21,288 bases of DNA from a virus, in IMG/VR virus record IMGVR_UViG_3300030012_002816, positions 1 to 21,288 of that record; one strand, given 5' to 3'. Within the stretch, counting starts at the first letter, position 1. Each line of letters starts with the position of its first letter. Below, in pieces: positions 1-5,411 of the stretch. Below the pieces are notes generated by a model. It saw only the letters and a list, made by a program, of their open reading frames with translations, had not been told where the DNA came from and searched no databases. The position numbers were made by a program, and so were the translations under genes.

Positions 1-1928
1 CAACCATGTCTTGCTCTAAAACTTTTTCTTCTTTCTGGGTCATCTCTTTTAATTTCCATGTTTGGGTCACCAAAATTAACTTTTACAACTTTACCTTTCG
101 GACCCATTGTATATACAGAAAACTTTTTAGGACCTTCAGATGTTCTGAAAGGGTCGTTTAGTTTTACTTTTTTTCCTTGATATTCTGCTTCAGTTATTTC
201 CTCTTCTTCCTCATATATCTTTTTCGCTCTTTGAGTACGAATATCATTTAACACGTTTAATACTGTATCTGCTGAATATTTTGCAGTTACTAAATCAGGA
301 TTCTGTCCTGGTGTTTCTCTAGCATAAGCGATTCTAGAAGCATCAGTTCCTAATTCTACTCTCTCATCAAGTTCCAATTCTTCTTTTTTACTACTCCTCA
401 CTTTATCAGCTAAGTCTTTATCAGCTTTACCCCATGTTCCTTTGCCTTTTGTTATAAAAGAATTGACTCTTGCAAAAGCCCATTGCTGTTGAGATGCTCC
501 AGGTCTATGACCTCCTTTCCAAGCGGCCATTCCTCTATTGTAAACTTGTTTCAAAATACTATATGATATTCCTGATTTTTCAGCTTTTTTAACTAGACCT
601 GCAATTTTAGATTCATTCATAATATTATGAAATTCTTGATCAAACTCCTCTTCTTCAAGCATTTCTTCATAAATTGCTTCGACTTCTTCTTCTAGTTCGT
701 AATCAAGTTCTAATTCTTCTAAACTTTCTCCGATATCGTCAGAGTTATTTAAACCTTCAAACTCTAAATAATCTCTTGCTGACTCTATATAATCAGTAGC
801 TTTAGCTATTTTTGAAAGAACCCATTGCTCAGGCTCTTCTTGCATATTCATAAACATCTCTTGCAAATCTTCCACATCTTGTTCTAAATTAGCAAGTTCA
901 ATTCTTGCCATACTTATACCATCAGTTGCAACTCCCTCATTGTAGTCTTCAGTAACCATCTTTGCTAGAGTTCTAGCATCTACGTTGAAATATTTTTTTG
1001 CAATTGCGGCGGCAGAAGATATGACACTATTTTTAGGGCTTTTCTTCATCAAATCTTTTAATTCTTTTTGTGCTGATTTATACTGTGCTTTATGAATTAA
1101 AGGACTTAATCTTTTAGTTATTCCAAAAGGATCTTCTTTTAATTTAACTTCTTCTGTATACATGTTAAGTTCATATCTTTTATTATCAAGATTTGTAACT
1201 TGCACTTGAACTGCTTTTTTACCAGTCTTATCTAATAATCTGTAAGCATTCGCTTTACCTGAAGAAGGTCTTTTAGGTCCTGTCGCAACTTTTCTATCAA
1301 TGTCTCTAGGATCAATTTCAATTTTATATTTCTTTTTCGCAAAATCATAAGCATGTTGCATAGCTGAAGAAAAATCTTTATGATAAAGTTCATAACCTGT
1401 TCCAGATTTAGCCTCATTGACTTCAACTTCTTCTTTAGGAACACAATTAGGCACCATTCTATTACCTTTCTTTTTCATTCCTTTTTGCACATGAGTGTCC
1501 CAGCAAGGGTCATCTTCTTGTATTCTTCCTTTATGTTTTTGATATCCTTGTTTTGCTTGTCTTTTTTTATCTGTATGTTTACCAGCACCAGATTTAGGAG
1601 CATTTAAATGAACTAAATTTCTTTGTTTATTTTCTTTCTCTTTTTGTTCTCCATACATTTGTCTATACTTTTCAGTATGCTTTGACGTTTTTAATTTTCC
1701 CTTTTCTCTAGCCTTTTTATCTCCAGGAGCATCTTTGTATGCACTAGCATCTGAATCAGACTTATCGGCCTGTCTGTCAAAATGAGAAGCCCTAGAGACT
1801 TTCTTCTCTTTTGAAAGACCTTTGTAATACTTTTTAGGTTGAGTGCCGTCTCTCTTAGAGACATGAGGATCTTGCTCTACCTCTGTTTTTTCTAAAAGAA
1901 AATCTGTATATTTTTTAAATAACATCAT
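1..1928 (-). CDS. Large multi-domain marine-phage protein, C-terminus beyond window edge
   Basis: This frame stays open for 642 codons from an ATG at 1928 (a second ATG follows at 1925) to the left edge, with no stop. The first ATG overlaps the stop of the GT17 gene as ATGA. Visible segments: a Lys/Arg-rich N-terminus with CWDTHVQKGMKKKGN and NCVPKEE near residues 145-165; a conserved-looking segment containing KVATGPKRPSSGK near 213-226; a helical region near 267-330; a very acidic stretch near 400-430; MAAWKGGHRPGASQQQW near 465-482, which resembles the DUF5824-type domain of marine phages; and, at the edge, RRKSFRARHG near 630-640, a tail motif I recall from cyanophage and pelagiphage proteins. 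It lies in the probable late block, so a head- or virion-associated role is possible. That is inference, and the function is unknown. Confidence 0.85.
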   Translation of the reverse strand, partial: MMLFKKYTDFLLEKTEVEQDPHVSKRDGTQPKKYYKGLSKEKKVSRASHFDRQADKSDSDASAYKDAPGDKKAREKGKLKTSKHTEKYRQMYGEQKEKENKQRNLVHLNAPKSGAGKHTDKKRQAKQGYQKHKGRIQEDDPCWDTHVQKGMKKKGNRMVPNCVPKEEVEVNEAKSGTGYELYHKDFSSAMQHAYDFAKKKYKIEIDPRDIDRKVATGPKRPSSGKANAYRLLDKTGKKAVQVQVTNLDNKRYELNMYTEEVKLKEDPFGITKRLSPLIHKAQYKSAQKELKDLMKKSPKNSVISSAAAIAKKYFNVDARTLAKMVTEDYNEGVATDGISMARIELANLEQDVEDLQEMFMNMQEEPEQWVLSKIAKATDYIESARDYLEFEGLNNSDDIGESLEELELDYELEEEVEAIYEEMLEEEEFDQEFHNIMNESKIAGLVKKAEKSGISYSILKQVYNRGMAAWKGGHRPGASQQQWAFARVNSFITKGKGTWGKADKDLADKVRSSKKEELELDERVELGTDASRIAYARETPGQNPDLVTAKYSADTVLNVLNDIRTQRAKKIYEEEEEITEAEYQGKKVKLNDPFRTSEGPKKFSVYTMGPKGKVVKVNFGDPNMEIKRDDPERRKSFRARHG

Positions 1929-2785
1929 GCCTCTGATTCCTCTTTGTATATGTAATTTTTAAACTTATCTAAATTATTCTGAACAAAAGTAGGGTAACTT
2001 AAATACGCTGACTCTACTAATGTAGGTTCATAATCTGAATACAATCTTTCTACTGCTTCTTCTTTCGTATCAAAATCAAACTTAGTTTTCTTATTTGCAT
2101 AAACATCTTTAGAATGTGCCCAACTCTTTTGTTTTAATAATACGTTTTCTCCATCTGTACTATCTAAAAATGTGTAATGCCAACCTGCATTTTCAATATA
2201 TTTGTCTCCTAAATTCATTTGTCTAATGACTGCTGGAGATAACTCCTTTAGTTTTTTAAAAGTTGTCATACAACCTGCGGCCGTAACATTTGTTTTGTGA
2301 AGTAAATTTAATTTATAAACATACAAATCTGTATTAAATCTAACTATTTCATCTTTTCCACAAAACTGCGTAGCTTCTTCAATACTTTGTTCTTTCAGTA
2401 TTTCATCTACACAATGACCTAAAACTAAATCATTATCACTAGCTTTTAAATAATCTAATATTATACAAACATAATTCACTTGAAACGCTTCTCTTTTCCA
2501 ATCATCAATATTTTGATGAGACTGCACTACTTCTTCTAAAACTTTGACGTTGAAAAAATTAGGAAACTTTTTCATTTCTTCCTCAAAGTTATTTATTCTT
2601 ATGTAAACGATTTTATCTTCATACTTTTTAAATCTATCTACATCAAAATTAAAAGACTTTTTTAATCCTGTGTGTGTTTGACCTGCTTCACACACTATAA
2701 ACTTATCAACTACATTCCAATGAGCATTTAATTTAACTTCAAATAAATCATTCTCATTCAAAAACATACAATAATCATAAATCAA
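1925..2785 (-). CDS. GT17-family glycosyltransferase, TTG start
   Basis: This is probably a glycosyltransferase of family 17 (the beta-1,4-N-acetylglucosaminyltransferase family), acting on host surface glycans or on a virion protein; the substrate is unknown. Family-like motifs are IYDYCMFLNENDLFE at residues 2-16, EAGQTHTG at 33-40, WKREAFQVN near 97-104, VDE at 126-128 in the position of the family's DVDE metal site, and GWHYTFL near 202. The first Asp of DVDE is Cys here (HCVDE), so the metal site may be altered. The start codon is TTG, seven bases after a clear AGGAG. The next in-frame ATG would remove the conserved IYD start. It sits two bases after the basic protein gene and overlaps the large downstream gene by four bases. 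Confidence 0.8.
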   Translation of the reverse strand: MIYDYCMFLNENDLFEVKLNAHWNVVDKFIVCEAGQTHTGLKKSFNFDVDRFKKYEDKIVYIRINNFEEEMKKFPNFFNVKVLEEVVQSHQNIDDWKREAFQVNYVCIILDYLKASDNDLVLGHCVDEILKEQSIEEATQFCGKDEIVRFNTDLYVYKLNLLHKTNVTAAGCMTTFKKLKELSPAVIRQMNLGDKYIENAGWHYTFLDSTDGENVLLKQKSWAHSKDVYANKKTKFDFDTKEEAVERLYSDYEPTLVESAYLSYPTFVQNNLDKFKNYIYKEESEA

Positions 2786-2788
2786 TTT

Positions 2789-3112
2789 TTATCTCCTAGC
2801 TAATTCTTTCTTTCTAACTGTAGGCATTAGTCTTGTTGCTAGTTTTTTTACTGCACCTTTAAACTTACCTAACCTCCTATCAATTTGCATCTTTGCAGAT
2901 GTTCCCAACTGAGCATATGATTTACCTCCTGCAAGTCTTTTTTTAAAGAAACCTCTTGCAGTTCTAGTTGCTCTTTTACTTAATCGACTTCTATCTGCAA
3001 ATCTTTTCATTTGTAGAGTTCTTGCTCTTTGTACTCTTTTTTGAAGTCTCTTAAATCTCATTGCTCTTTGTCTTCTTTGAGCCATGTCTAATACTTCGTT
3101 TTGATTTTCCAT
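2789..3112 (-). CDS. Very basic small protein, unknown function
   Basis: This 107-residue protein is dominated by Arg and Lys, with an almost continuous run of basic helices (RRQRAMRFKRLQKRVQRAR near residues 12-30) and a C-terminal part ending RLMPTVRKKELARR. It resembles a basic segment I recall in marine T4-like phage structural-region proteins, where LLPKVRxAE-type endings are common. No enzyme motif is visible. It starts one base after the upstream stop and lies in the probable late block. The charge suggests nucleic-acid binding, a scaffold role or packaging, but this is inference. The Shine-Dalgarno site is weak (GCGAG), so translation may be coupled to the gene before it. Confidence 0.75.
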   Translation of the reverse strand: MENQNEVLDMAQRRQRAMRFKRLQKRVQRARTLQMKRFADRSRLSKRATRTARGFFKKRLAGGKSYAQLGTSAKMQIDRRLGKFKGAVKKLATRLMPTVRKKELARR

Positions 3113-3113
3113 A

Positions 3114-3467
3114 TTAATACTCGCTAGAATCGTAAGCCGCAGTTTTCCTCAAGTATAAAACTGTTGTATACTTGTGAGAACCATTTGTAGGAGTAATTCT
3201 TATAGGAGAAGTAGAATTTGCACTATCAACCCAAGAATCGTATTTGAAAGACCCTGTACCTGCTAAATTGTATAAAAGAGTGTTGCCACGAAATAATTGA
3301 ACAATATTTGTGGTGCCTTCATTAGAATAATGAACTTCTTTTATGTGATATTCAGTAGGTGTCACAGTATCTTTTGTGCTGTCGGCAAAGGCCACGTTTG
3401 CCGTAGACTCTGAGGTAATTCTAACAACTACCTCAGTATCAGTATTTTTGAGAACATCTTTTGACAT
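3114..3467 (-). CDS. Small probable late protein, unknown, beta-rich
   Basis: I do not recognise this 117-residue protein by a firm family match. It is rich in Thr, Ser and Val with alternating hydrophobic residues, which suggests beta strands, and has no signal peptide or membrane segment. It is the first gene after a TATAAATA late promoter (3503-3510), which fits a structural or assembly role. The start is fixed by an AGGAG six bases before the ATG. That AGGAG lies in the right arm of an 8-bp inverted repeat (3474-3502), so its translation may depend on where the mRNA begins. Confidence 0.75.
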   Translation of the reverse strand: MSKDVLKNTDTEVVVRITSESTANVAFADSTKDTVTPTEYHIKEVHYSNEGTTNIVQLFRGNTLLYNLAGTGSFKYDSWVDSANSTSPIRITPTNGSHKYTTVLYLRKTAAYDSSEY

Positions 3468-3473
3468 TAAAAT

Positions 3474-3502
3474 CTCCTATATTGTTCGTTTTTCTATAGG
3501 AG
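3474..3502 (-). promoter_or_regulatory. Inverted repeat that can sequester the Shine-Dalgarno site of the 3114-3467 gene
   Basis: On the minus strand CTCCTATA (3502-3495) pairs perfectly with TATAGGAG (3481-3474) across a 13-nt loop. The right arm contains the AGGAG that serves the ATG at 3467. The left arm directly follows the TATAAATA box, so a late transcript starting about six bases after the box (near 3497) lacks most of the left arm. This mirrors the published behaviour of T4 genes e, soc and 49. Pairing and position are seen in the sequence; function is inferred. Confidence 0.65.
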
Positions 3503-3510
3503 TATTTATA
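3503..3510 (-). promoter_or_regulatory. T4-type late promoter box TATAAATA
   Basis: An exact match to the T4 late -10 consensus TATAAATA, in the intergenic gap 36 bases before the ATG at 3467. By T4 spacing the start site would be near 3497. It separates the replication genes from the probable structural block. The motif alone occurs by chance in AT-rich DNA, but the intergenic position and the gene class downstream support it. Confidence 0.7.
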
Positions 3511-3514
3511 ATTT

Positions 3515-3667
3515 TTAATATGTCACCATTCTCGATATTGCTACTAATTTAGAAGATGTTGAATATATTATTGTAGAATTCCTAACTAAGTAATACATAC
3601 CACTTTTTTTGTAAATTCTAATCCTAGTCAATCTACTTTCTTCAACTAGATGTGTAGGATTAAACAT
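3515..3667 (-). CDS. Small 50-residue protein, unknown
   Basis: A complete 51-codon frame (ATG at 3667, TAA at 3515-3517) fills most of a gap that otherwise has no gene. It begins nine bases after the stop of the preceding gene. The product is basic, with strand-like segments (RIRIYKKSGMYYLVRN near residues 15-30), and I do not recognise it. No strong Shine-Dalgarno site precedes it, so expression would rely on coupling to the gene before it. The late promoter box lies just after its stop. It may be the last gene of the helicase operon or a chance frame. Confidence 0.5.
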   Translation of the reverse strand: MFNPTHLVEESRLTRIRIYKKSGMYYLVRNSTIIYSTSSKLVAISRMVTY

Positions 3668-3675
3668 GTCTACTG

Positions 3676-4047
3676 TTAAGGTCTGTACTGGTTTGGAAAT
3701 GGAAATTGGACTACGTTCTTCACTTCGTCCTCTACTTCTTGTAATTTTAAATTCTCCTCATCAAAATCAAATTTTAATTGTAAATTGTTCATTTCGTCTT
3801 CATTCATAACTAAAGATGTTTCTGTTGCACCTGAACCTGAATCGTATATAGACGTTTCCTTTACATTTTCATACAAATCGTAAGTTTCACGAACTTCATT
3901 ATCTAAATTCACAGTTGAAGTGTAAATTGATTGACTCCAATCTCTAGGACATTCTATTCTATCAACAACATCTTCAACTTCTTTAATTGACTTTTTCAAA
4001 TTGTTTAAAGTAATTTTCAAATCGTCTAAGTTTCTTTCGTTTATCAT
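3676..4047 (-). CDS. Small acidic coiled-coil protein, unknown
   Basis: This 123-residue product is not recognised. The N-terminal 30 residues (LDDLKITLNNLKKSIKEVED) look like an amphipathic helix or coiled coil. The rest is acidic, ending in a proline-containing tail (FPFPNQYRP). The ATG overlaps the stop of the helicase gene by four bases (ATGA), which implies translational coupling and production at the same time as the helicase. A replisome accessory role is a guess from context only. Confidence 0.7.
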   Translation of the reverse strand: MINERNLDDLKITLNNLKKSIKEVEDVVDRIECPRDWSQSIYTSTVNLDNEVRETYDLYENVKETSIYDSGSGATETSLVMNEDEMNNLQLKFDFDEENLKLQEVEDEVKNVVQFPFPNQYRP

Positions 4048-5411
4048 ACTTTGAACCCCTTAAATTTATCTTCTTTAGTTTCAGGTTGACCGCTGTCAGA
4101 TACATCATTCTGAGCAGTCTGCTCTACATCATAAATTCGCATTTTAGGTTTATCTATTCCAACAATAAATCTTTTATTTTTATTAGGATCACTATATCTA
4201 TTCTTCAGTTGTTTTATTAGAACTTGATTCAATTCTGACAACTGCTCACTAGATATTATAGCAAACATAAAATCAGCAGTAGCAGGTAATCCAAAAGATT
4301 CTGACGTATCTTCTAATCCTACATCAGTATTTGTATATCCTGACCTTGTAGATTGTGTTGCTGATATTATAGGAACACTATATTCTACTGCTAATCCTCT
4401 CAATTCTTCTGCAATGGCTTTTACATATGTATACGAATTCACATTTGAGCCAGGTTTTATTCTTGAAGATGTACATATGTTTATGTAATCAATGTAAATA
4501 ATATCTGGAACAAATTGTTTTTTCAATCTCAATTCATCTAATAATCTTTTGAAATGTAGTGGGTTTGCTGTCGCTGTAGGATATTCTTTAATAATCAATT
4601 TACCAGCAGTCTTCTCTCGTATTCTTTCTATCTTTTTCATGTAAGAATCTTTAGGTAATGCTACTAAATCATCTAACTTAACATTCATCAAGTTTGCATC
4701 AACTCTTTCAGCGATTCTTTCTTCAGACATTTCTAAGGTAATGTATAAAACATTTTTACCCATAGCCATATTAGCAGAGGCACAATGACACATAAACAAA
4801 GATTTACCTACGCCTGTACCTGCAAGTATTACGTTTAAAGATTTTTCAGGCACTCCTCCTTTTGTTATCTTATTTAACATTTCAATATCAAAAGGAACTT
4901 TCTTTTCAACTAAATGATAATATTCATGTCGTTGTTCAGCATCTTCTACGAGGTCGTGACCTATATGATTATCAAAAGATACTGCTAGTGCATCAGTTAA
5001 TATTTTAGGAATAGCACCTAAATCCAAGTGATTTCTATCTTTATCATTTTCATCTACTATTTGAATACTCTGCATTAAACCATTGTATATTGCTTTTTGT
5101 TTACAAAACTTTTCAGTTGTATCTATTAACCAATCTGAATCTTGAATATCAGAATTTATAGTAACTTCTTTTACAAGAGTTTGAGTTTCTTTATGTAAAT
5201 TTTCTGATAAAGATGAATTTTTATCAATCTGTATCAAAAGAGATTCTTTAGTGGGTCTAGATTTATACTCATGAATATGTTTATAAATTTCATCAAATAA
5301 AGTTATTTCAGCAGTTTCGCTAAAGTATTCTTTTTTAAGAAAAGGCAAAACTGTACGAGTATATTCCCCATCAAAAATCAAATGCTTTAATATTTTATGT
5401 TCTAGTTTCAT
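4044..5411 (-). CDS. 41: Replicative DNA helicase (T4 gp41 / DnaB family)
   Basis: This is the hexameric 5'-3' helicase that unwinds the phage replication fork and recruits primase. At 455 residues it is close to T4 gp41 (475). An N-terminal helical domain (about 1-150) precedes a RecA-like C-terminal domain. Walker A is GTGVGKS at 198-204, and a Walker B-like IIYIDY lies at 304-309, followed by SATQSTR in the position of the DnaB-family sensor/H3 motif. It overlaps the 104-residue gene before it by 17 bases and the gene after it by four bases. It follows uvsX as in T4. No primase (gp61) gene is present in the window. Confidence 0.93.
   Translation of the reverse strand: MKLEHKILKHLIFDGEYTRTVLPFLKKEYFSETAEITLFDEIYKHIHEYKSRPTKESLLIQIDKNSSLSENLHKETQTLVKEVTINSDIQDSDWLIDTTEKFCKQKAIYNGLMQSIQIVDENDKDRNHLDLGAIPKILTDALAVSFDNHIGHDLVEDAEQRHEYYHLVEKKVPFDIEMLNKITKGGVPEKSLNVILAGTGVGKSLFMCHCASANMAMGKNVLYITLEMSEERIAERVDANLMNVKLDDLVALPKDSYMKKIERIREKTAGKLIIKEYPTATANPLHFKRLLDELRLKKQFVPDIIYIDYINICTSSRIKPGSNVNSYTYVKAIAEELRGLAVEYSVPIISATQSTRSGYTNTDVGLEDTSESFGLPATADFMFAIISSEQLSELNQVLIKQLKNRYSDPNKNKRFIVGIDKPKMRIYDVEQTAQNDVSDSGQPETKEDKFKGFKV

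Follow-up and report, generated by a model that had tools for sequence, protein, structure and literature searches.

A probable start-site-dependent translational lock ahead of a 117-residue protein gene in a T4-like marine phage

A gene for a 117-aa protein in the 21,288-nt stretch of viral DNA analysed here (IMG/VR record IMGVR_UViG_3300030012_002816, positions 1 to 21,288; hereafter the window) is probably controlled by a translational lock that depends on where the RNA starts, of the kind found in T4 (e/soc/49/I-TevI). The mechanism is already known from T4, where e, soc, 49 and I-TevI are precedents of the device (PMC3014915), and the window site is a further example, from a marine phage that is T4-like and related to Pelagibacter phage HTVC008M. 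Read on the minus strand, the site has the order GTGACATATTAAAAAT TATAAATA CTCCTATA GAAAAACGAACAA TATAGGAG ATTTTA ATG (Table 1). In the proposed mechanism, polymerase reading through from the gp41 operon would produce an RNA carrying both hairpin arms, in which the Shine-Dalgarno sequence AGGAG is paired, and early on the 117-aa gene would be poorly translated. Late, gp55 polymerase would start at 3497, leaving CTCCT untranscribed so that no hairpin forms, and the 117-aa gene would then be translated. A gene embedded in a replication block would in this way be made strictly late, presumably to the benefit of the phage.

Table 1. Features at and around the box-hairpin-gene site of the window.
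Feature	Position	Strand	Basis or remark
Late promoter box TATAAATA, gp55-type (very probable)	3503..3510	-	Exact match; kept in G001 and G002
Predicted late RNA start (+1)	3497	-	Inferred from T4 numbering
Hairpin 5' arm CTCCTATA	3495..3502	-	Sequence, fold
13-nt loop GAAAAACGAACAA	3482..3494	-	Fold; invariant in three genomes
Hairpin 3' arm TATAGGAG, holding Shine-Dalgarno AGGAG (3478-3474)	3474..3481	-	Sequence, fold
ATG of the 117-aa gene	3467-3465	-	Sequence
117-aa gene, presumed controlled by the device	3114..3467	-	Low-confidence beta-rich fold, no named family
50-aa ORF, on the read-through transcript	3515..3667	-	Kept as ORF in G001 and G002; L093 9954-10106
gp41-type DnaB-like replicative helicase, upstream, same strand	4044..5411	-	PF03796, phrog_19
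107-aa gene, next in line, homologous to HTVC008M gp142	2789..3112	-	phrog_23027
Glycosyltransferase family 17-like gene	1925..2785	-	PF04724
DUF5824-containing gene (cytidyltransferase-type PHROG), extending past the window edge	3..1928	-	

The preliminary description of this DNA had stated that TATAAATA abuts an arm pairing perfectly with the arm that contains AGGAG, and this layout is real and exact: there is no gap between the box and CTCCTATA, and CTCCTATA and TATAGGAG pair perfectly over 8 bp. The ATG lies 35 nt downstream of the exact TATAAATA, with AGGAG at normal spacing from the gene start. T4 late boxes span -13 to -6 (PMC2988020), and because this numbering starts at -13 the predicted +1 falls at the position given in Table 1, downstream of CTCCT, the first five bases of the 5' arm. 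The same late start, with CTCCT absent from the late RNA, had been proposed in the preliminary description, which had also correctly cited T4 e, soc and 49 as users of this arrangement (PMC3014915).

Taken by itself the octamer TATAAATA was not unusual in the window, with three copies observed and 4.4 expected, and since it is no commoner than chance, its status as a promoter has to be established by other means. In G001, a near relative of 144 kb, 9 of the 20 copies of TATAAATA sit 12-60 nt ahead of a start codon with a Shine-Dalgarno sequence, compared to 2.7%, the median for 56 octamers of identical composition. The corresponding gene-preceding counts were 7/21 in HTVC008M and 17/32 in T4, and in all three genomes TATAAATA ranked first of the 56 octamers for position ahead of genes. 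The G001 genes that it precedes match gp8, gp13, gp18, gp22 and gp23, and G001 encodes a gp55 homologue 56% identical to HTVC008M gp55, a gene that does not lie on the 21-kb window fragment. Position in these genomes and conservation thus support the original assignment, and in the lineage of the window phage TATAAATA very probably acts as the late promoter. As a separate observation, the octamer serves as a late-promoter predictor in the pelagimyophage-like genomes G001 and HTVC008M; in a published survey of pelagimyophages, late-promoter prediction had failed (PMC7029224).

The genes on both sides of the site are co-directional and those upstream are tightly packed. Between the box and a 123-aa gene sits the 50-aa ORF, which is too short for the first ORF list, with its 60-aa cut-off, and whose stop (3515) lies 4 nt ahead of the box. 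Since the flanking genes are co-directional and this ORF ends so close to the box, there appears to be a clear opportunity for read-through into the 117-aa gene. The position of the stop, together with the chance-level frequency of the octamer in the window, would also suit a reading in which the TATA box is unused and the stem either damps expression constitutively or is melted by ribosomes translating the 50-aa ORF (translational coupling). We consider this very unlikely, as the box is kept in three genomes and is placed like the other late boxes of G001. As for coupling, we estimate, from the usual toeprint distance of some 16 nt measured from the first base of the P site, that a ribosome positioned at the stop codon would extend to about 3504 and not quite touch the arm.

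The 71-nt leader gave a predicted fold of -11.2 kcal/mol, compared to a shuffle mean of -4.75 (z -3.0), and 58 of 200,000 leader shuffles produced an 8-bp arm that both adjoined the box and covered GGAG. In the read-through RNA (start at 3560 or 3640), AGGAG is predicted to lie wholly inside the 8-bp stem and to require 10.3 kcal/mol for opening, versus 2.2 kcal/mol in RNA truncated at the predicted late start 3497, where the hairpin is lost. Late starts from 3499 to 3494 gave predicted values of 2.2-2.7 kcal/mol, and at 15 C the gap widens to 14.4 kcal/mol for the read-through RNA against 2.8 for the late RNA. Folding of the two leaders, which the preliminary description had put forward as a check, thus returned a paired AGGAG in the former and a free one in the latter. 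Access to the ribosome-binding site was further surveyed in 92 late-box/gene pairs from 12 T4-like genomes, using a gain of 5 kcal/mol as threshold. Only the known examples T4 I-TevII (11.0) and T4 gene e (10.3), together with T4 26/51 and the G001 copy of the site (7.4), reached it, and the T4 26/51 gain comes from a divergent pair with palindromic overlap of its two promoters. Among the 71 pairs from the 11 genomes other than T4, the window-type site alone reached at least 5 kcal/mol, the next best being 3.2; none of 158 control-octamer sites did so, and no late box of HTVC008M showed an effect on access. T4 soc scored low (0.9), because the measure covers access to the Shine-Dalgarno sequence alone and the soc helix covers the start codon side.

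The main rival to the translational lock holds that the hairpin is chiefly a weak intrinsic terminator of the helicase operon, beyond which the late promoter restarts transcription, with occlusion of the ribosome-binding site being incidental. The stem contains four G-C pairs, and behind it comes ATTTTAAT, in which 5 of 8 bases are T, but this T tract is short and interrupted, the loop measures 13 nt, and the site was not listed by the terminator scan, whose loop limit is 8. A second TATAAATA in the window abuts a terminator-like hairpin (-21.4 kcal/mol), T-rich tails occur in 20 of the 73 recurrent cases described below, and a TATAAATACTCCT hairpin that looks more terminator-like, ending in TTTTTT, is found in the helicase-related locus L004, where the motif lies 2.8 kb after gp41 and ahead of another gene. 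Against this, the 3' arm at the window site includes the normally spaced AGGAG of the gene itself, a feature for which a terminator has no use, and we judge this explanation unlikely; weak termination may add to the effect of the lock. The second hairpin is of some interest in itself: at 11122-11080 on the minus strand, TATAAATA is directly followed by AAAGCGATACGCC...GGGTATCGCTTTTT, upstream of an Hsp20-like gene (11047-10562), and the box and first arm are kept in G001 and G002. The late RNA would there lack part of the arm, so this hairpin may be a promoter-linked terminator.

When the viral collection was searched for relatives of the 117-aa gene, only two were found (97% and 85% protein identity), and a profile search for further relatives returned no more. 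The leader is identical letter for letter in the window and the two relatives, and lies inside a 114-nt invariant run (3537-3424) of a region whose three-way identity averages 88%. This invariance supports constraint and cannot show pairing: no base varies in the three genomes, making a test for compensatory changes impossible at the leader, and conservation does not single out pairing because the loop is conserved as much as the stem. Further invariant runs of 100 nt are found in the neighbouring glycosyltransferase gene. An invariant loop would also be compatible with the paired AGGAG acting as a protein operator (for a RegA-like repressor) or as a nuclease shield (against RegB-like GGAG cleavage) instead of a timing lock. 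RegA is present in G001, and the cleavage of GGAG by T4 RegB is prevented by secondary structure (PMC3014915), but neither role needs an arm abutting a late promoter, and we regard both as most improbable.

The lock favoured here had been placed at the replication-to-late boundary in the preliminary description. In G001 the site (at 89311) is flanked by gp41 and primase 61, with nrdA, nrdB, RNaseH, PhoH and gp32 lying further on. Because replication and nucleotide genes thus continue past it, the site is a late island inside an early/replication block and not its boundary. Nor did the idea of a conserved switch at this position hold: TATAAATACTCCT was found in 0 of 12 contigs with gp41 relatives and HTVC008M showed no box effect, and conservation at the gp41 boundary was accordingly rejected beyond near relatives. 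Across phages, the recurring thing is the device and not its gp41-side location.

The 117-aa protein gave no Pfam or PHROG match and no phage record, and comparison to Pfam and PHROG revealed no recognisable endonuclease. Its structure model (pLDDT 61) suggests that the product is probably beta-rich, with weak beta-sandwich matches, and for these reasons we claim no function for it. It is the box alone that suggests the gene to be late. The glycosyltransferase family 17-like gene is probably in the same late transcript. Further along, the N-terminus MMLFKKYTDFLLEK (window 1928-1880, minus strand) looks by eye like MIRFRDFLVES (L004:7744) and MRFKEYITEA (L156:10728), and all three resemble MKTYQEFIAEA, with which the T4 internal head proteins IPII and IPIII begin, hinting that these could be capsid-targeted late proteins.

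Recurrence of the layout was assessed by scanning IMG/VR for the pattern TATAAATA-CTCCT-(4-30)-AGGAG-(4-10)-ATG. The scan returned 99 stretches, versus 17 with CTTCC, which has the same composition and is non-complementary, and the layout is thus over-represented about six-fold in viral contigs relative to the non-pairing control. In 73 unique matches among the loci analysed, pairing continues at the next two positions inward in 51% and 60%, versus 14% and 16% one register off, and in 26 of the 73 the TATA box itself takes part in the stem for 3 bp or more, versus 0 of 13 controls. A reversed-octamer control (ATAAATAT-CTCCT, 14 stretches) was set aside as not clean, as it may overlap genuine TATAAATAT boxes. 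Five individual matches (L107, L118, L120, L137 and L176) have a stem that enters the TATA box (AAATACTCCT...AGGAGTATTT), and in these a single palindrome comprises the promoter, the lock on the ribosome-binding site and a T run resembling that of a terminator.

An upstream ORF is co-directional in 63 of the 65 matches that have one and lies within 60 nt in 51, so read-through is possible at the recurrent sites. The genes downstream include about 20 homing endonucleases as well as HNH nucleases, endolysins, two Soc proteins, one endonuclease VII, and head-neck and tail genes, types that match those of T4 and Aeh1 (e, soc, 49, I-TevI-III, segB and mobE; PMC3014915, PMC2988022). Homing endonucleases of phrog_314 follow 10/28 strong and 10/36 weak hairpins; with rates this similar, gene type cannot be predicted from the length of the stem. 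gp55 turned up in 6 of 20 of the longer match contigs (and in 3 of 12 control contigs), and some matches are therefore not proven gp55 phages. Tentatively, the late-box/anti-RBS hairpin might be a cassette that is widespread in T4-like and related phages and has repeatedly come to front genes residing within other transcription units (genes for homing endonucleases, for lysis, and for head and neck), the stem in many cases entering the TATA box so that promoter, lock and sometimes terminator are one palindrome.

Among the known systems, T4 gene 49 (endonuclease VII) shares the abutting layout of the window site: there the box AATAAATA is directly followed by CCCTTA, pairing with TAAGGG just ahead of the ATG; gene 49 differs in its variant box, its other arm sequence and in being an endonuclease gene. 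In T4 gene e (lysozyme), the ribosome-binding site is likewise sequestered in read-through RNA and freed by late initiation, with an effect of about 100-fold (PMC3014915), and the opening-energy gain given above was obtained by the same computation. Unlike the window site, gene e has a tandem pair of late boxes, of which the second lies within the hairpin, and controls lysis. A late promoter upstream of a hairpin hiding the ribosome-binding site is also found in the leaders of T4 I-TevI, I-TevII, I-TevIII and segB and of Aeh1 mobE (PMC2988022), which control mobile endonucleases, whereas the window gene is no recognisable endonuclease. T4 soc likewise has a late box, with a 9-nt arm beginning no more than 2 nt after it, but its helix does not cover the Shine-Dalgarno sequence.

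The site would extend the T4 late-translation lock to a pelagimyophage-like virus, from a group whose late promoters went undetected in one survey (PMC7029224), and it offers a sequence rule for spotting late genes that are nevertheless placed in early operons. Judging by the recurrence scan, phages seem to take up the device for genes located within some other transcription unit, those of homing endonucleases being frequent among them.
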